From the NCBI GenBank assembly GCA_000209465.1, contig GL890588.1:55789-119788 (forward strand): a stretch of 64,000 nt of DNA, read 5' to 3'. This stretch comes from Lachnospiraceae oral taxon 107 str. F0167 (GTDB lineage Bacteria; Bacillota; Clostridia; Lachnospirales; Lachnospiraceae). Below, one piece after another: positions 46,649-57,083 of the stretch; position 1 is the first letter of the stretch; every line of letters starts with the position of its first letter. Made by a program: the position numbers and the translations under genes. Below the pieces are notes generated by a model. The model saw only the letters and a list, made by a program, of their open reading frames with translations. It was not told where the DNA came from and made no database searches.

Positions 46649-46660
46649 TTTTGTATAATA

Positions 46661-46710
46661 AAAGGTCTGAATCCATATCACAAGATTTCTTGTGTTGGAT
46701 TCAGACCTTT
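46661..46710. terminator. bidirectional terminator
   Basis: AAAGGTCTGAATCC and GGATTCAGACCTTT are perfect 14-bp arms with a further CACAAGA/TTGTG stem. TATTTTTA follows on the plus strand. It ends the DeoR gene and stands 5 bp past the end of the convergent protease gene, serving both. Confidence 0.9.
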
Positions 46711-46714
46711 ATTT

Positions 46715-49192
46715 TTATCTGAAATAATCATTCCATTGATTTGTTCCAAGGTAGAGGATATGAAGATATCCTACAGCGGCACCCGCCGACTTGTCGGTAA
46801 TATTTGTGGATACCTTTGCTATTCCGCCCACATTGCGAACCTCATAGCGTTTCATTCCAACATTACTTTCATCCTGATCATCCGAATCACTGACATATAC
46901 GGCTTTTAACTTTCCGTTTAAATCATACTCGGCACCCCATAAGGTTACTATATGATTATTTCTTGAAAATACCTTATGAGATAAACCGACCAAACCGCCT
47001 CTTCCAAGTTCAAGCTTAAGATCCTCACTTAAAGATTCATAGCGCCCTCCATAAGTACGGTCTGTAAGTTTTTTCTCCTTAAATACATCATAGAAAAATC
47101 CGCCATTATTATCAGGAACCAAATCATCCCTTTCTATATTGGTAGCACCGCTAAGTTTAGGTGTATATCCGTTTATAAATAAATCCACTAAAAGATCGGT
47201 GTAAAAACCTCTCTCATTATAGCCGTACAAAACTTTATAAAGTTCAAATATTTTACTCTCTTCCTGACTTTCAAAAGAAGCCTTTAAATCTGAGAGTTGT
47301 CTGTTGGCGTGTGTGATATCTCCGTTTTTTACTATATAATTGTCAACATTTTCAATATTTTGATCAAACCACCAATGCAGCATATTTGATGCTACCGCAG
47401 CGAAGCAAAGATTCTTATCTATATCGATATTTCCCCCGCTTCTTGTTTTGTTAACATCATACCATCCGTCTCCGCTTGAAAACGGGGCTTTATAGCTTAC
47501 ATAGGTATCTGAACCGCCCTGTGTTATCTCCTTATGAAAATCTCCGCCTTCTCCCATAACCGGTCCGTTTATACCCTTTGCCCATATTATGGTTCTGATT
47601 TCTCCATCTTCATTGGTATACTGTACAACATTGTCATTCTCCGGTGTAATCAAATAATCCTTTATCCTCTGAGCCTTATCCTCGGCACTCTCCTCATTCT
47701 TATTTGGCTGCTCCTGTGTATCAGGTTGTGTAGGATTTTCTGTATTACCTGATACAGGTGGCTGAACTGTATTGTTATTTTCCTCTGTGGAAGGAGGGGT
47801 GTTGCCCTCATTATTTGCACCAGGATTTTCCTCTTCTGCATTATTTTGCCCTGAATTATTGCCGGTATTATTTTCATTTGCGGAATTATCTGATTCCGTA
47901 CTGCTTTGATTTGGGTTAGCGCCGGTATTATTTTGCCCCGAATTATTTCCGGTATTATTTTCATTTGCAGAATTATTTGATTCCGTGCTGCTTTGATTTA
48001 GGGTAGTGCCGGTATTACTTTGCCCTGAAATATTGCCGTTTTGATTATGAGCATTATTTATATTATTTTCTGCTTTATCATCAGAAGCATTATTACTAAT
48101 ATCCCTTGATGCGGAATTGTTGGAGGTATTATCTTCTCCATTCAGGTTTTTATTGACGGCATTATCAAATCTTTTTTGGCTGTTATTTGGCAGTTGCTTA
48201 GTGCTGTCGGAAATTTTATTATCTGTAGTTCTTGAATTTTCGGTACGGATATTTCCATTCAAACTTTCTGTTATATTTGAACCTGAATTCTGTGCGTCAT
48301 TTCCGACCTGACTTTCTATCCTTTTATCTTTATTTATCTCGTGGACATTTCCTATATTTGAGTTTTCCCCTCTGCTTAAGTCGGCACCTAAGTTTCCACT
48401 TCCGCTTGAATCGCCACCCAAGCTTTCACTCCTGCTTGTACCACCGCCGGAACTTCCACCTCTGCTTGAAGTGCTACCCGAGCCTCCACTCCTACTTGAA
48501 CCGCTGCCGGAACTTCCACCTCTGCTTGAAGTGCTACCCGAGCCTCCACTCCTACTTGAACCACCTCCGGAACTTCCTCCTCTGCTTGAAGCACCGCTCA
48601 AGCTTCCTCTGCTACCCGTGCTTCCTCTGCCCGAGCTTCCTCCTCTACTTGATTCTCCACTTGAGCTTTTGCTTTTGCCTACGCTACCTGAATTGCTGCC
48701 TGTACCGCCTGCCTTTTTAGCTGCATTTGTTATGCCGCCTGATGTACTTATTCCTTTTCCGTTTTCATAATGCTGTATCCCGTTTTCATTTATCCATCTG
48801 CCTGTAGAGTCAATCTTATATCCGTCTATCACCGTATTTGCACGCATTTTGCCAAAGGTATCCTTATTACTTCCTTCAAAATAATAACAATATCCGTCAA
48901 TCCACTGCCAACCTGATAAAAGCACACCCTCATTGCCGTTTTTACTGCTGTCTAAGAAATACCAGTTATTGGAAGCATCCTGAAGCCAACCTGTTTTTAA
49001 GCTTCCGTCCTCATTAAAAAAATACCAGTTATTATTTATCTGTTGCCATGCTTTTAAGGTCTTATTTTCCTTATAATATTTCCAGTTGTTATTTTCAAGT
49101 TTCCATCCTTCTACGCCTGCATAGGCATTAAATGAAAACAATATTGACATTGTGAGTCCTAAAAAAGCCGGACTTCCATTAAACTTTTTCAT
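46715..49192 (-). CDS. secreted IdeS/Mac-like cysteine protease (peptidase C66) with cell-wall-binding repeats
   Basis: 825 residues. Signal peptide (1-25), then cell-wall-binding repeats with the GW...WYF pattern (about 28-145; NNNWYFFNEDGSLKTGWLQD). A Ser/Gly-rich repeat region (about 155-275) and an Asn-rich low-complexity region (about 280-515) follow. The C-terminal domain (about 530-825) resembles IdeS. The catalytic set is Cys596 (NLCFAAVASNMLHWWFDQ), His747 (NNHIVTLWGAE) and Asp769/Asp771 (YVSDSDD). The His-to-Asp distance of 22 equals that in streptococcal IdeS, and Lys582 (YDVNKTR) may match Lys84. IdeS cleaves IgG in the hinge; activity on IgG here is inference. Confidence 0.88.
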   Translation of the reverse strand: MKKFNGSPAFLGLTMSILFSFNAYAGVEGWKLENNNWKYYKENKTLKAWQQINNNWYFFNEDGSLKTGWLQDASNNWYFLDSSKNGNEGVLLSGWQWIDGYCYYFEGSNKDTFGKMRANTVIDGYKIDSTGRWINENGIQHYENGKGISTSGGITNAAKKAGGTGSNSGSVGKSKSSSGESSRGGSSGRGSTGSRGSLSGASSRGGSSGGGSSRSGGSGSTSSRGGSSGSGSSRSGGSGSTSSRGGSSGGGTSRSESLGGDSSGSGNLGADLSRGENSNIGNVHEINKDKRIESQVGNDAQNSGSNITESLNGNIRTENSRTTDNKISDSTKQLPNNSQKRFDNAVNKNLNGEDNTSNNSASRDISNNASDDKAENNINNAHNQNGNISGQSNTGTTLNQSSTESNNSANENNTGNNSGQNNTGANPNQSSTESDNSANENNTGNNSGQNNAEEENPGANNEGNTPPSTEENNNTVQPPVSGNTENPTQPDTQEQPNKNEESAEDKAQRIKDYLITPENDNVVQYTNEDGEIRTIIWAKGINGPVMGEGGDFHKEITQGGSDTYVSYKAPFSSGDGWYDVNKTRSGGNIDIDKNLCFAAVASNMLHWWFDQNIENVDNYIVKNGDITHANRQLSDLKASFESQEESKIFELYKVLYGYNERGFYTDLLVDLFINGYTPKLSGATNIERDDLVPDNNGGFFYDVFKEKKLTDRTYGGRYESLSEDLKLELGRGGLVGLSHKVFSRNNHIVTLWGAEYDLNGKLKAVYVSDSDDQDESNVGMKRYEVRNVGGIAKVSTNITDKSAGAAVGYLHILYLGTNQWNDYFR
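47840..48010. repeat. coding tandem repeats in the Asn-rich linker
   Basis: A unit of 29 codons (87 bp), encoding NQSSTES-(N/D)NSANENNTGNNSGQNN, occurs about twice. It forms the flexible linker between the wall-binding and protease parts and is prone to length change. Confidence 0.65.
48421..48600. repeat. 60-bp coding tandem repeats in the Ser/Gly linker
   Basis: Three consecutive units of exactly 60 bp (48421-48480, 48481-48540, 48541-48600) encode a 20-residue Ser/Gly/Arg repeat (SGSTSSRGGSSG). They are highly similar at DNA level, so copy number may vary between strains. Confidence 0.85.
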
Positions 49193-49299: not shown

Positions 49300-50952
49300 T
49301 TATTTAAATGATATTACATTCCAGATTTCTTTCGGCTCAAGTCCAAGTTTCCAGACTGCCACTCCCGCCAGATCGGCTTCCTTAACAGCCTCCATTTTCA
49401 GAGTCATGGAGCGCTCATCTTCCATCCATATATATTTGGTGGCATTGCCTATGGTAGTATGTCCCACATACTGACCTACTTCATCATCCCAGGTTAAGTT
49501 TACATTGTTCTCCTTAACCCATTTAGTTGCACCATTGATTCCAAGTGCGCTTGAACTTAATTTTGAATTCTCCCTGGTCCAAACTCTTGTATATGTAGGT
49601 ACTGCATTTATAAGCTTTTCCTTAGGCACTTCAGCCAAACTGTCTGTAATAGAATTCTTTACAAAATCTATAGATGCACTGCTGCCCTCGTCAGATCCGC
49701 TGTAATGTTCGTCATAGCCCATATTTATCACATAATCCACAACCTCAGCCAGTTTACCTCTTTCATAATACATATTGTAGGATGCCGGAATAGGCACATC
49801 CACACTTAATACCAGTCCGTTATTTCTGCATGAAACCGAAAGTTCTCTTATAAATTGAATAAAATGCGGTGCATTATCCTGAGTCAATGACTCAAAGTCT
49901 ATATTTATTCCGTCAAATCCATATGTCTTTGCATCATTCATAAGATTTTTAATAAGGTTTTTCCTGTTTTCGGAAGATGATAAAATCTTTAATGTGCTTA
50001 TATCCTTACTGAAATTATCAATAAGCGGCCATACCTGCAAGCCCTTTTTATGTGCCGCATCCACATAATCCTTTGCCGCTATGGAAGTATAATTCCCCTT
50101 ATTATCAGATAGTTTAAACCATGTGGGTGATATTACATTCATTCCGTTTGTATTATTGACCACATCCGCTAAATTGGCATTTGCTGCAACTGTTGTGACC
50201 TGATGCCATCCAAGCACCACCTTCTCATTCATAGATATGGATGTATACTGTGGCTTTGTAAAACCGCTGACTCTCTCCATTTCTTTAAAGTTTTTTAAAC
50301 GATTCTTTTTTACATATCCTAATGAACCGTTCCTTGTAAGAATCCTGTACCAATTGTCATTTTGTTCCACTATAATTACAGTATCATCCTTATTTAACTC
50401 GACATTTTCTATACTTGCGGATCTTTTGCTTGCATCCGCTCTAAGTACCGACTTTGACTTCACTTCGGCTTCTTCATATTTGCCATATCTGTTATTTATA
50501 TATACTTTTTTGATATCACCTTCAATAAAATTATCCACCCAAATATCAGTATATGCCTTTATTGTTTCTATGGAAATATAGACTTTCCCACCCTCTTCAA
50601 GCAAAAGGGGCTTGCCGTTATTATCCGTATTCTCAAAATTTGCATATACTATCTCTGTCGGCAATGTATATGAAAGAAGCTTTTCTCCTTCATTATAATA
50701 AAACTTATCATTAAGTATTGATCCTGTCCAATTTAAAGGTATATATACCACTCCGTCTTTATAAATTGCTTTGGCTTTTTGTAAAGAGTAATTATATACA
50801 AGTGCTACCTCATCATTCTCAACTTGATATATTTCAGATTCTGTTATCTTATCTTTTGAACTCCCAAAATCATCCATCTTCCCCGATATAAATATAATTC
50901 CAAGTATGATACATAGAACTATCACTATACCAACTATACCTTTTCTCTTCAC
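49300..50952 (-). CDS. secreted GH18-family protein with SH3-like domain
   Basis: 550 residues. One N-terminal membrane anchor or signal (about 7-26), a copper-amine-oxidase-like N-terminal region (about 60-165; YIPLNWTGSIL), a bacterial SH3 segment (about 170-225) and a glycoside hydrolase 18 domain (about 235-548). The catalytic motif is YGFDGINIDFE, a DxxNxDxE variant with the acid Glu kept. Related proteins (YaaH/SleL type) cut peptidoglycan or chitin-like chains. It is probably a cell-wall hydrolase. It lies 107 bp upstream of the protease gene and may be co-transcribed with it. Confidence 0.85.
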   Translation of the reverse strand: MKRKGIVGIVIVLCIILGIIFISGKMDDFGSSKDKITESEIYQVENDEVALVYNYSLQKAKAIYKDGVVYIPLNWTGSILNDKFYYNEGEKLLSYTLPTEIVYANFENTDNNGKPLLLEEGGKVYISIETIKAYTDIWVDNFIEGDIKKVYINNRYGKYEEAEVKSKSVLRADASKRSASIENVELNKDDTVIIVEQNDNWYRILTRNGSLGYVKKNRLKNFKEMERVSGFTKPQYTSISMNEKVVLGWHQVTTVAANANLADVVNNTNGMNVISPTWFKLSDNKGNYTSIAAKDYVDAAHKKGLQVWPLIDNFSKDISTLKILSSSENRKNLIKNLMNDAKTYGFDGINIDFESLTQDNAPHFIQFIRELSVSCRNNGLVLSVDVPIPASYNMYYERGKLAEVVDYVINMGYDEHYSGSDEGSSASIDFVKNSITDSLAEVPKEKLINAVPTYTRVWTRENSKLSSSALGINGATKWVKENNVNLTWDDEVGQYVGHTTIGNATKYIWMEDERSMTLKMEAVKEADLAGVAVWKLGLEPKEIWNVISFK

Positions 50953-51219: not shown

Positions 51220-51648
51220 CTAATTTAATGCATGAAACCTTTCTTCAAGTGCTTCTTGTAAAACTCTTGAAATGTTTAAGTTCAATCGTTTAGCTTCAGC
51301 ATTCATCCAACCCGGTATAGTCAAGTTTTTCCTAACCATTTTCTTATCAAGTTTCTTTCTATATCTTGTTAAGTCTGCATCTATCATTGTAATTATGCCT
51401 TTTGTATAATCGAAATTTTCACCTTTATGAATATCTTTAGCTAAATCTATGACCTTTTCATAATTTGACGGTTCGGGAATTTCTTTTTTACTGTCTTCAA
51501 TACTTAAACACTTTAAGCTTATAGCATCCCTAGCCATTTCAATAGCTTTCGGCAAATCTCTGCCCTCTGTATATATCATAAGATCCGGAACAAATACTAA
51601 GTAAATATCATCCGACTTCTCAATCAATGTTGGATATACAACTCTCAT
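51220..51648 (-). CDS. hicB: HicB-family antitoxin
   Basis: 142 residues from ATG 51648, behind AGGAGGAAG. A degraded RNase-H-like HicB domain (about 1-75; VYPTLIEKSDDIYLVFVPDL, TEGRDLPKAIEMARDAI) is followed by a C-terminal DNA-binding helix pair (about 110-142; LTIPGWMNAEAKRLNLNISR). HicB neutralises the HicA RNase and represses its operon. No hicA follows, and only a short ORF remains upstream. It may be an orphan antitoxin or regulator. Confidence 0.85.
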   Translation of the reverse strand: MRVVYPTLIEKSDDIYLVFVPDLMIYTEGRDLPKAIEMARDAISLKCLSIEDSKKEIPEPSNYEKVIDLAKDIHKGENFDYTKGIITMIDADLTRYRKKLDKKMVRKNLTIPGWMNAEAKRLNLNISRVLQEALEERFHALN

Positions 51649-51667
51649 TTTCTTCCTCCTTTTCAGC

Positions 51668-51691
51668 TTAAACATCTCTACGCTTCATCAT
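51668..51691 (-). pseudogene. vestigial hicA start
   Basis: Behind AGGAG the ORF MMKRRDV-stop has only seven codons. HicA toxins typically begin MKRRD(L/V), so this looks like a hicA whose body was deleted, leaving promoter, ribosome site and start. It lies directly before hicB. A leader peptide is the alternative. Confidence 0.5.
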
Positions 51692-52433: not shown

Positions 52434-55400
52434 CTAATTATTTTTTGCCCTATAAATATATATGGTCTTTTCCGATTTATTGCCGGCAAGGTCTATCGCA
52501 CTTATTTTTATACTGTTTTGCCCCTCGTTTAACGGAACTTCTATTTGTTTAACTATCTGTGTAGTATTACCGTCTTTGCTTGCAATATAAGAACTTGAGG
52601 ACTTATCATCCGTTCCTATAAGTGAATCTCCATTATAAAGGCTTAACTTAAATGAATTATCAAGGGAGCGAATCTTAATATTTACCGTATCGGCATCAAG
52701 CCCTCTTTCATATACCTGATAATCTATTACAGGATGTATCTTATCATAGAATAATCTTCTTACTATGCTTGCCGACTTTTTATTTTCAGTGCTTACCTCA
52801 ACTTTTATATTTACGTTAAATGTTTCAAGTTTTATTTTGCTTTCAAAGGAATAAGCCTCGCCCTTATATATGACCTTTCCGGCTTTTTTATAAACAATAT
52901 TGCTTTTTACAAGCTCATCTTTACCTATAGTTATAGGACTTAAAAGCTCATTGCCGTCATTATCTACAAGCTTTATTTGCACGCTTTCAACACTGTCATC
53001 CTCATCCACATATCCTACAAAACCGGATATATCTATCTCTCCCTCTTTGATGCTTTTGTTTCCAAGTACATCAAAAAACTCAGGTGTTTTAAGAAATACT
53101 ACCGGATAAGGCTTCTTTTCGGCATTTGACGGGCTGGCATCATTATCGGTAATCTCTGAAATACTTTCTTCTTCATCACCAAGATTTTGCTTAGGCTTTC
53201 CTTCTCTAAATACCGTTGTTATATCAAAGCTTGTATCCATAGGATTTATTGTAAATTCATAATAAAGATTGTCCTCATCATATTTGAAGTTATATTTTTT
53301 AGCCGTTTCAGAGTTTACTCTATTATCAAGAATTATATTTTCTTCAATATTATCATGTTTTAGAGTAAGCTTATGCAAATGAGAACTATCATCTGCCAGC
53401 TGTATCTTAATCACCGCTTCCTTTTCTATAAGGCTGTAGGTCATATCATCAAGCTTTATATCATTTACATAAACACTTGCATTATTATTGCTTATATAAT
53501 CAAAAAAGTTAAGGAAATTAACCTGATTATAATTTCTTTCTCTGACAGCTCCAAGAGTTGTTCTGCTTTTATTATCCATATAGTCAACAGCATCTATAAT
53601 CATATCCGAAGTGTCGGCAAAATATGGACAGTGCACTTCTATATCCGAGTTTCTGTAACCGTTGGTATAAACATGCACCTCTCCCCTTGAAGTGGGATTA
53701 TTGGGTACTGCTTCTAAAGGTATATTAAGCTTACCGTCTTCCACCTTTATCAGCTCTTTTCCCTCTCTCTCAGGTTCATCCTGAAATCTTATAACAAATG
53801 ATTTTCCATATCTAATACTTGTATCATCATTATCAGACTGTGCATATCTTATTGACTGCAAATATACATTCTCTATACCTATGCCCTTATCATGAACATT
53901 AAATACTATTTCCTTCATATTGCCGTCAATATCATTTACCTGAACTTCATTTGCAGTACTGAGCTTAGGAGCCGAGCTGTCCACTCTTACGGGGAATTTG
54001 TAGACCTGCTCTCCACTGCCTCCAACATTATTATTATTAAGTTTCGCCTTAATACAATATATGTATTCCGCACCGTCCTCTACAACATTCCCTCCAAGTT
54101 TTCCGTCCCATACAGAATCCGGCATAAACTTAAAGCTTTTATTGACTGAAAGTCTGCTAAGCTTCCTTACCTGCTTTGAGACGCCTAAAACTCTTAAAGT
54201 TTCCTCCGTCTTAGCATCAAGTATCGAATACTCTATCTGCTCCATGTTTCTAAGCGGTGCTATTCTTGCCGCCAAATCAGGATAGTACTTACTGTTCGGT
54301 GAAAAATATATCGCATTGTCATACAGCGGAAGCTTAAGCATCATACTTGTTCCAAGCATTGAAGAACTAACTCCGGCATTTTTATTTACAAAAAATTGCA
54401 CATTTCTTTTTGTATTTCCGATTTCCGGAAGTTGGAAGGCATCTATGGCTCTTTGCCTGCTCCAATCTCCGTAAAATCCGAGGAAAGGTATACTGAGGTC
54501 AGATACTCCGTCTTTATCCTTAAGACTTATAAAACCTTCTATAAAATTATCCTCTTCCAAGTTTAGAGCATCCGAATAATCCATAGTAAAGTCTATACTT
54601 GCAGATGAATGTGCCTCTACACTTATCTCTCTGCTTATATTGGACTCATTGGAATGTATTATTTCCGATCTTTGAAGTCTGTAAGTACCGTCTGTAGGCT
54701 CATAGAGTGCAACTGAATTTATATTATAGCTTTTTGTACTGTCACCGAAGTTTTCAAGTCTAAGTCTTACCTCAAACCTTTTCTCCTTAAGTTCCCTAAG
54801 TTCAAGTTTACCGTCAGCTATATTATCATTAGTTCCTTGTGCCCTTACTACTACTGTGGTTTTTAATGCATTCTCAATATTTAGAGCGCCGCTTCCTTGC
54901 TGTCTTACAAAGTAGGGTATATCTTCAAATATTCCCTCATCCTTTAGAGGAGTTGCGGTATTCATAAGTAAAAGTTTTATAAATTCCGAACTGTTATCGG
55001 TTTGTATATTCTTTGCTTTTATATATTGTTTAAGTATGGCTGTGGCTCCCGTTACCTGAGGAGCAGCCATGGAAGTACCGGACATATCCTTATACTTATT
55101 ATCTTCAATGCTTGAGTATATATGCCCTCCCGGAGCGCTGATCTCCGGCTTGATTCTAAGGTCGGGAGTAGGTCCCCATGAAGAAAACTTTGAAACACTT
55201 CCCGCTGCCACATTATCAACATCCGTCATTTCCGTAAATATCTCAGGTCTTAGTGCATTATTATAACCGTATTCTTCCATTAACTTATCATAGGTACTTC
55301 TTTTTATACGGATACAGGTAAGCTTTCCTGCATTACCCGGAACTTCAAGATTGCCGCCTATCTGCTCAGCCATGCTCCTGTTGTTGTAAAAAACAATGGC

Positions 55401-57083
55401 AGCAGGTCTTAATGCAGCTATTGCCTCAAGTTTATCCGCAAACCCAAAGGCATCTCTTGCTGTAGGGATTTCAAAAAGTACGAGTTTATCTTCTATATTT
55501 TCTTTTTTAATAAGCTCTTGCTTAGCGTTTTTTATATCAAATATAGCCGCAGTTATAATTTTTTTCGGATTTTCTCCCTTATGCAGGTCCATTTCCTCAT
55601 TTACATAGGCACCCCAGCCATCCTTCCATCTTATAACATACATATGCCTTTTAGTATTTTCCATGGATGCGACTGCTATAGTTCCTTCATTTACTGCCGG
55701 ATTGGCTATTAAAGCAGTATCGTAATTTTCCTTTAAAGGTTCTACATTATTTATATTTCCGGCGGTAATATTTCCGTCATTACCTGCAGCAACCGAAACC
55801 ACTATTCCTGCTTTTCTTGCCTTTTCTATAACCTCATTTTCCGGATAAGCCCTGTTCTCCATTGAAAATCCGGCTGCCGTTCCAAGACTTAGGTTTATTA
55901 CATCCGCCTTCAATGTTATAGCATCATCCAAGGCTTTTAGCCAAATATCGGTAAATGTTGTAGGATACTCAAGGTCATCTGAAAATACCTTAAGTGCAAG
56001 TATTTGTGCATTGGGTGCCACACCGAAAATCTTACTGTCATTATCATTGGCGGCAGCTATTCCCGATACATGCATACCATGCATTACACCGAAACTGTTA
56101 AGCAAATTTTTATTAAAATCATAATAGTTATAGCCATAAGGTACCTTGTCCGAATAATAAGAGCCTTTTAATCCTTTTTCGGATATTATCTTTTCTATAT
56201 CTTCCTTGCTGTACATAGGCTGTACCGCTTCATCAAGTCTAAGTGCCTTATGTCTGTAATCTATACCTGAGTCTATTACTGCAATCACACTGCCCTCGCC
56301 CTTATAGCCAAGCGTATTCCACGCATATCCTGAGCCTATTATACTGCCAGATGACTTAAGTAAAGGTCTTTGAAACTCCTGTGATACATACACACTTTTT
56401 ACTCCGGGGAGTGCTTCTATTTTTTCTATCTCAGTAGCATCGGCACTTAATGATATTCCGTTGAATATAGTATCATAATGCCTTACTTCTTTGGCATCCA
56501 CCTTTATTGCCTCATTTTTTATATCTGTTAAAAGCTTATCCTGATCTTCTTTTAATTCCTGCTTTTTTTCATCTACAAAGGCTTCATCCAATTTATCATA
56601 GTCTATATCTTTATTTATAGCCTCTTCTACCAAGGAGTCCTTATCAAGCTCTATTATAAGTCTCAATTCCTTAGGCTTATTTTCTTCTTTTTGAGTATCA
56701 GCCTTAGCTGAATTTAATATTTTATTCGCCTCTTTTGTATATTCAGACTTAGCTGAATCTAAGTTTTCATCTGACTCTTTTTCATACTCAGACTTAGCTG
56801 CATTTAATTTTTTATCCGCTTCTTCTTCATACTCTGACTTAGTTGCATTTAATTTTTTATCCGCTTCTTCTTCATACTCTGACTTAGATGTATTTATTTT
56901 TTCGTCTACATCTTTTTCGTACTCGGACTTAGCTGCTTTTAATTTCTCGTCTGTATCCTTTGCATATTCAGAAACTCTACCCCCGTTATTTTGTGCCGCA
57001 AAGCCCGGTTTAGCTGTAAAAACTAAAGGGTTTATAAGAAGTACGGCACAAAACAAGGCAAGTTTTTTACTTATCTTATACAT
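52434..57083 (-). CDS. very large secreted subtilisin-like (S8) protease
   Basis: 1549 residues. Signal peptide (1-30), then six 14-residue coiled-coil repeats of the type KSEYEKEADKKLNA (about 46-130), an I9-like propeptide (about 138-235) and a catalytic domain. Triad: Asp271 (VIAVIDSGID), His335 (MHGMHVSG) and Ser671 (DMSGTSMAAPQ). A PA insert (about 480-610) lies before the Ser. The last 850 residues contain Fn3-like modules, as in C5a peptidase or lactocepin. There is no LPxTG motif, so anchoring may rely on the SLH-type neighbour, whose stop lies 7 bp upstream of this start. Targets unknown. Confidence 0.92.
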   Translation of the reverse strand: MYKISKKLALFCAVLLINPLVFTAKPGFAAQNNGGRVSEYAKDTDEKLKAAKSEYEKDVDEKINTSKSEYEEEADKKLNATKSEYEEEADKKLNAAKSEYEKESDENLDSAKSEYTKEANKILNSAKADTQKEENKPKELRLIIELDKDSLVEEAINKDIDYDKLDEAFVDEKKQELKEDQDKLLTDIKNEAIKVDAKEVRHYDTIFNGISLSADATEIEKIEALPGVKSVYVSQEFQRPLLKSSGSIIGSGYAWNTLGYKGEGSVIAVIDSGIDYRHKALRLDEAVQPMYSKEDIEKIISEKGLKGSYYSDKVPYGYNYYDFNKNLLNSFGVMHGMHVSGIAAANDNDSKIFGVAPNAQILALKVFSDDLEYPTTFTDIWLKALDDAITLKADVINLSLGTAAGFSMENRAYPENEVIEKARKAGIVVSVAAGNDGNITAGNINNVEPLKENYDTALIANPAVNEGTIAVASMENTKRHMYVIRWKDGWGAYVNEEMDLHKGENPKKIITAAIFDIKNAKQELIKKENIEDKLVLFEIPTARDAFGFADKLEAIAALRPAAIVFYNNRSMAEQIGGNLEVPGNAGKLTCIRIKRSTYDKLMEEYGYNNALRPEIFTEMTDVDNVAAGSVSKFSSWGPTPDLRIKPEISAPGGHIYSSIEDNKYKDMSGTSMAAPQVTGATAILKQYIKAKNIQTDNSSEFIKLLLMNTATPLKDEGIFEDIPYFVRQQGSGALNIENALKTTVVVRAQGTNDNIADGKLELRELKEKRFEVRLRLENFGDSTKSYNINSVALYEPTDGTYRLQRSEIIHSNESNISREISVEAHSSASIDFTMDYSDALNLEEDNFIEGFISLKDKDGVSDLSIPFLGFYGDWSRQRAIDAFQLPEIGNTKRNVQFFVNKNAGVSSSMLGTSMMLKLPLYDNAIYFSPNSKYYPDLAARIAPLRNMEQIEYSILDAKTEETLRVLGVSKQVRKLSRLSVNKSFKFMPDSVWDGKLGGNVVEDGAEYIYCIKAKLNNNNVGGSGEQVYKFPVRVDSSAPKLSTANEVQVNDIDGNMKEIVFNVHDKGIGIENVYLQSIRYAQSDNDDTSIRYGKSFVIRFQDEPEREGKELIKVEDGKLNIPLEAVPNNPTSRGEVHVYTNGYRNSDIEVHCPYFADTSDMIIDAVDYMDNKSRTTLGAVRERNYNQVNFLNFFDYISNNNASVYVNDIKLDDMTYSLIEKEAVIKIQLADDSSHLHKLTLKHDNIEENIILDNRVNSETAKKYNFKYDEDNLYYEFTINPMDTSFDITTVFREGKPKQNLGDEEESISEITDNDASPSNAEKKPYPVVFLKTPEFFDVLGNKSIKEGEIDISGFVGYVDEDDSVESVQIKLVDNDGNELLSPITIGKDELVKSNIVYKKAGKVIYKGEAYSFESKIKLETFNVNIKVEVSTENKKSASIVRRLFYDKIHPVIDYQVYERGLDADTVNIKIRSLDNSFKLSLYNGDSLIGTDDKSSSSYIASKDGNTTQIVKQIEVPLNEGQNSIKISAIDLAGNKSEKTIYIYRAKNN
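56710..56970. repeat. 42-bp coding tandem repeats of the S8 protease
   Basis: Six units of 42 bp encode 14-residue heptad-like repeats (KSEYEEEADKKLNA). The inner units are almost identical in DNA. The coiled coil may give a stalk or a partner-binding site at the N-terminus of the pro-protein. Confidence 0.85.

Follow-up and report, generated by a model that had tools for sequence, protein, structure and literature searches.

A choline-binding-repeat Mac-1 family protease of Lachnoanaerobaculum, a probable orthologue of the IgM protease IceM

Introduction

Proteases of the Mac-1/IdeS family (family C66 of MEROPS) include enzymes that cleave host immunoglobulins. IdeSsuis of Streptococcus suis cuts immunoglobulin M (IgM) at the N-terminus of the third constant domain, and this cleavage lowers surface IgM and C3 (PMC6177247). 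An IgM-specific protease named IceM is attributed to Lachnoanaerobaculum saburreum in a review whose abbreviation list agrees; the passage on IceM there names no protease family (PMC13236571). Here we analyse a 64,000-nucleotide stretch (the window) of contig GL890588.1 of Lachnospiraceae oral taxon 107 str. F0167, and in it one minus-strand gene for an 825-residue protein with a C-terminal Mac-1 domain. We consider it probable that this protein is the Lachnoanaerobaculum orthologue of the reported IceM, a surface-held protease of the Mac-1/IdeS family (C66-type) that most likely cuts IgM.

A first literature search for a paper that describes an IgM protease and names its gene returned reviews only. 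The primary description of IceM is reportedly Smith 2024, which appears as a reference in a review. Four further articles were also drawn on (PMC11157650, PMC12655054, PMC12154255 and PMC13357706).

A Mac-1 protease domain with a complete active site

The open reading frame starts with ATG and encodes 825 residues exactly where the original prediction had placed it (Table 1). Its match to the Mac-1 family is far beyond chance (3e-206 for Pfam, and 1.4e-41 for the IdeS crystal chain 2au1), and the PF09028 profile is matched over its full length, positions 1–361 of 361. All five active-site residues (K582, C596, H747, D769 and D771) are present. Cys596, one of only two cysteines in the protein (102 and 596), sits within NLCFAAVASNMLHWWF. 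The catalytic Cys, His and Asp769/Asp771 that had been proposed are recovered by alignment, and the spacing of 22 residues between His747 and Asp769 does equal that of residues 262–284 in IdeS and IdeC (numbering of PMC11833123 and PMC12418751).

Relatives were collected from a one-genome-per-species collection by a scan with two short peptide patterns, which misses relatives lacking them, and amounted to 27 loci. In the 28-row alignment of the window protein and these loci, the window residue is retained at Cys596 in all 28 rows, at Lys582, His747 and Asp769 in 27 each, and at Asp771 in 22. The Mac-1 protein of a Peptostreptococcaceae metagenome-assembled genome (MAG; L022:8001-8906) carries Tyr in the catalytic His column and is either an inactive member or the product of a sequence or alignment error. 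Compared with L. saburreum, the ratio of nonsynonymous to synonymous substitution rates (dN/dS) is 0.127 for the protease domain and 0.109 for residues 1–150, similar to the 0.067–0.143 of the neighbouring genes tested.

The fold comparison that had been suggested as a check agrees with these assignments. The predicted model of residues 510–825 (46718–47665) adopts the papain-type fold of IdeS, as supported by fold matches, with a structure-based identity of about 34–36% to IdeS and IdeC; in the VIA list of fold matches, the absence of a family does not exclude that family. The structure alignment comprised the window protein and 24 of the 27 loci (all except L019, L029 and L033).

Choline-binding repeats in place of GW repeats

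The N-terminal repeats had been read as GW-type. Instead, they match Choline_bind_3 (PF19127, 7.7e-11) and Choline_bind_1 (PF01473, 1.2e-6), both over the cutoffs, and no GW family was found at E values up to 1. At scores below its cutoffs, NCBIfam also relates residues 28–134/135 to the repeat tails found in choline-binding proteins of pneumococci. Between the repeats and the protease lies a long low-complexity linker; Asn makes up 27% of residues 300–510, and the end of the Asn-rich part overlaps the Pfam Mac-1 envelope. A putative signal peptide, judged by eye, together with the repeats and the linker supports the proposal of a secreted, wall-binding protein.

This arrangement is unlike secreted IdeS, as had been remarked, yet it is not unusual within the family. 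In the ten of 27 loci for which architecture was determined with Pfam (the N-termini of the rest were judged by eye), the accessory domains include choline-binding repeats (L007 and L013), S-layer domains (L014 and L022), bacterial Ig-like domains (L025 and the Treponema relative L028), a reprolysin-type domain (L027) and a transglutaminase-like domain (L026). The Pfam scan of the window protein itself detected no bacterial Ig-like domain of the kind present in L028.

In the genome that contains the window, the choline-binding repeat is matched 62 times, and there are also one LicD-family gene (controls of that search matched in 2 of 14) and one open reading frame with nucleotidyltransferase and choline kinase domains (choline kinase controls over the cutoff in 2 of 14). 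Judged from these genes, choline in the wall is plausible, and hence so is self-anchoring of the protein.

One orthologue at a fixed site across the genus

The source genome belongs to Lachnoanaerobaculum, near L. saburreum. Among the 27 loci the closest is L. saburreum DSM 3986, with 91% identity in the protease domain (best segments, as for the following values); four further Lachnoanaerobaculum loci reach 83–84%, Lachnospiraceae KA00044 68%, Johnsonella and COT-073 about 50%, and S. suis 45–47%. Each of the six genus genomes examined has exactly one Mac-1 gene; among 299 genomes sampled across the family, this one included, such genes occur in 6. The single gene of L. saburreum DSM 3986 is the orthologue of the window gene and has the same choline-binding plus Mac-1 architecture.

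Synteny, compared for nine of the 27 loci, leads to the same conclusion. All five other Lachnoanaerobaculum loci (L007, L008, L009, L010 and L012) have the same regulator and sugar-kinase genes on one side of the protease gene and the same GH18 gene on the other, whereas none of the four loci compared outside the genus (L011, L013, L014 and L023) shares this neighbourhood. GH18 was assigned by Pfam; the regulator and sugar-kinase genes are presumably what inspection suggests them to be. In the 17 kb compared, the flanking DNA is 71–90% identical to that of L. saburreum in aligned pieces, which suggests that the window probably comes from a separate species.

Because L. saburreum DSM 3986 has a single Mac-1 gene, built of the same parts as the window gene, we infer that IceM is the product of that gene. 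An IgM-specific protease of the sister species has already been reported (PMC13236571), and the kind of enzyme is not new, contrary to what the original prediction supposed.

The genus groups with IgM proteases

Of 284 streptococcal genomes, 29 yielded Mac-1 genes. In four of the encoded proteins (L040–L043) the catalytic cysteine is residue 195, as reported for IdeSsuis (PMC6177247). In two short forms, L058 and L065, that cysteine is residue 94; these two match solved IdeS and IdeC at 1e-213 and 2e-198. The window protein does not have the short form: it is 825 residues long, with its catalytic cysteine at 596 rather than about 94, behind N-terminal repeats and a linker. Its domain is 91–92% identical to that of L. 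saburreum, 47–49% to the Cys195 IdeSsuis-type proteins and 32–38% to six short IdeS-type streptococcal proteins.

Two trees were built from 58 domain rows. One of 47 rows leaves out rows that are near-copies, a fragment or a weak match (L019, L029, L044, L045, L046, L050, L052, L053, L061, L064 and L068), and one of 33 rows was chosen so as to omit long rows. Lachnoanaerobaculum groups with S. suis and the Cys195 rows in both (support 98/82 with 47 rows and 98/98 with 33), the short IdeS rows fall outside this fork, and in neither tree is the window protein a member of the short IdeS clade. A wider fork excluding the IdeS rows in the 47-row tree (90/94) is under the starred level. Forcing Lachnoanaerobaculum and the short IdeS rows together in the 33-row tree costs 34 log-likelihood units and is rejected by the approximately unbiased (AU) test (p-AU 6.5e-5, an indicative value, as the group was picked after the first tree had been inspected). 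In the 47-row tree the Treponema rows stand far apart in a clade of their own (100/100), and in the alignment they have Asn where the window protein has Asp771.

Three streptococcal genomes have unusual Mac-1 genes. L055 (genome G590) joins the Lachnoanaerobaculum side of the 47-row tree on a long branch (98/87) and was omitted from the 33-row tree; gene transfer or a long-branch effect are both possible. L057 and L069 (genome G577) are two tandem Mac-1 domains, identical over the tree columns, in one frame of 1,954 residues. L068 (genome G515) is a gene in pieces, with three separate matches and a stop inside one.

Weighing the substrate

Judged by its nearest relatives, the protein most likely acts on IgM rather than IgG. 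IceM cuts IgM in both review accounts, whichever species is given as its source, and the position in the trees supports an IgM substrate independently of that attribution. Several points weigh against this reading. A 2024 review, with the IdeSsuis paper and a meeting abstract as its references, gives S. suis as the source of IceM (PMC10987683), and the IdeSsuis paper names porcine IgM as the sole substrate, so that activity on human IgM is not implied (PMC6177247). T-Mac is a Mac-1 protein that acts on complement proteins instead of immunoglobulins (PMC11833123), although it is much more distant from the window protein. The 33-row tree does not resolve how Lachnoanaerobaculum, Johnsonella, COT-073 and S. 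suis branch relative to one another. As to anchoring, neither the choline-kinase fusion nor the LicD gene reaches the cutoffs of NCBIfam models.

The original prediction was of an IdeS/Mac-like IgG protease, which would cut the lower hinge of IgG as streptococcal IdeS does. The Mac-1 (C66-type) papain-fold domain stands, and family, active site and fold are all held in common with IdeS; among solved structures the closest matches are IgG proteases as well, but no IgM-specific Mac-1 enzyme appears to have been solved. Contacts between IdeS and Fc at the prosegment-binding loop are mostly through the backbone (PMC9759587), so sequence alone would say little about an interface of that type. The IgG substrate is not supported: the nearest characterized relatives are IgM proteases, the short IdeS-type proteins are the least similar of the three groups (32–38% identity against 91–92% and 47–49%), and the grouping with IdeS is rejected (p-AU 6.5e-5). 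By trees and identities, then, an IgG protease is unlikely.

Salivary antibody is mainly IgA, and the protein might cut secretory IgA or, alternatively, a complement protein. T-Mac of Treponema denticola leaves human IgG and cuts C3, C3b, C4 and factor H (PMC11833123), but with the Treponema rows in their distant clade, bearing Asn in the Asp771 column, and the sister-species enzyme reported as IgM-specific (PMC13236571), a target of either kind also seems improbable. Least credible, and in our judgement very improbable, is that the protein retains the fold but is inactive or binds antibodies without acting as an enzyme. The MAG protein with Tyr in its catalytic His column suggests that losses may occur in the family, but the window protein has all five active-site residues, and its dN/dS is 0.127. 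We retain IgM cleavage by an active enzyme as the preferred reading; the original observation is confirmed and its interpretation is supported in part, with the surface immunoglobulin protease still the role that we infer.

Proposed mechanism and significance

In the mechanism that we propose, the signal peptide would direct export, the choline-binding repeats would hold the protein on the cell's own wall, and the protease would be displayed on a flexible linker of about 370 residues. Cys596, acting with His747, Asp769 and a Lys582/Asp771 oxyanion pair, would cut IgM; by analogy with IdeSsuis, the cut would most likely lie below the second constant domain. IgM bound to the bacterium would thereby lose its antibody arms or the Fc core that activates complement. 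Because IgM cleavage by IdeSsuis lowers surface IgM and C3, the tethered enzyme would by analogy remove cell-bound IgM and may thus serve complement evasion.

If the IgM reading is true, an IgM protease on the cell surface is retained throughout a genus of human oral bacteria. This would be relevant to the way in which bacteria of plaque deal with IgM and complement. It would also provide several natural variants, with 69–92% identity to the window domain, of an enzyme that has already been studied as a means of removing IgM ahead of gene therapy. With the sister-species enzyme already reported, the discovery is modest. A more doubtful extension, which we offer tentatively, is that each Lachnoanaerobaculum species examined has a single IgM protease tethered to its wall and encoded at an unchanging site, that cutting IgM at the surface instead of in solution may be a core trait of these oral commensals, and that tethering itself may be selected, as anchors (choline-binding, S-layer or membrane-spanning) are exchanged while the protease is kept.

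Other features of the window

Table 1 Features of the Mac-1 protease gene and its 3′ flank (window coordinates)
Feature	Position	Strand	Basis
Whole gene, putatively secreted wall-binding Mac-1 family cysteine protease, 825 residues	46715..49192	-	Open reading frame, translation and Pfam
Putative signal peptide, about residues 1–26 (...AYA/GVEG)	49115..49192	-	Judged by eye
Choline-binding repeat module, about residues 28–134	48791..49111	-	Pfam Choline_bind_3 and Choline_bind_1
Ser/Gly-rich linker, residues 150–300	48293..48745	-	Ser 32%, Gly 28%; tandem repeats in coding DNA
Asn-rich linker, residues 301–509	47666..48292	-	Partly coded by an 87-base tandem repeat
Mac-1 (IdeS-like) protease domain, residues 470–820	46733..47785	-	Pfam PF09028, 3e-206
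Lys582, aligned with oxyanion-hole Lys84 of IdeS	47447..47449	-	Alignments; role from PMC12418751, PMC9759587
Cys596, nucleophile, aligned with Cys94 of IdeS	47405..47407	-	Alignments
His747, aligned with His262 of IdeS	46952..46954	-	Alignments
Asp769, aligned with Asp284 of IdeS	46886..46888	-	Alignments
Asp771, aligned with Asp286 of IdeS	46880..46882	-	Alignments
Inverted repeat between the convergent regulator gene and the protease gene	46654..46717	.	22-nucleotide arms, 86% complementary

The inverted repeat downstream of the protease gene is probably a shared two-way terminator; a consensus terminator scan with a loop limit of 8 did not list it. The neighbouring GH18 gene (49300–50952) was considered as an EndoS-like IgG glycosidase and rejected on inspection, with no test by structure or tree (Pfam GH18; SH3-like matches just below cutoffs). 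At higher coordinates on the minus strand are a HicB-like antitoxin-type protein (51220–51675) and a 1,549-residue subtilase (52434–57083) in which an I9 propeptide and an Fn3-like domain are recognized. The nearest NCBIfam model to the subtilase, below cutoff, is the LPXTG-anchored SGO_0316 peptidase family, and the subtilase is likely to be another surface protease near the Mac-1 gene.

Comparison with known systems

Choline-binding proteins such as pneumococcal PspA and PspC have only the choline-binding repeat module in common with the window protein, at scores below the NCBIfam cutoffs; in the window protein this module is N-terminal and accompanies a protease. T-Mac (TDE0362) resembles it in having a C-terminal Mac-1 domain behind N-terminal accessory domains and a linker (PMC11833123), but these are bacterial Ig-like domains rather than choline-binding repeats, the structure-based identity is 22%, and T-Mac cuts complement, not IgG.

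IdeS/Mac-1 of Streptococcus pyogenes and IdeC of Streptococcus canis (2au1, 8a47 and 9hb1) share the papain-type fold, the Lys/Cys/His/Asp/Asp site and the 22-residue His–Asp spacing. They differ in their short secreted form, IgG substrate and separate clade, at about 34–36% structure-based identity. Entries 9hb1 and 9hb2 of the PDB bear the depositors' label 'IgM protease', yet the protein is S. canis IdeC, which is IgG-specific (PMC12418751).

IdeSsuis is closer: it shares the Mac-1 domain, the active site and the side of the tree, and it too is a long protein with extra non-protease parts. Its identity to the window domain is 47–49% (Cys195 rows), its protease domain is N-terminal and followed by a long C-terminal part, no choline-binding repeats were seen, and its reported substrate is porcine IgM only (PMC6177247). 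Closest of all is IceM of L. saburreum, from a different species of the same genus. Orthology was judged through the L. saburreum DSM 3986 gene rather than the IceM sequence itself, and on domain identity (91%), architecture and chromosomal site the two genes are probably orthologous.
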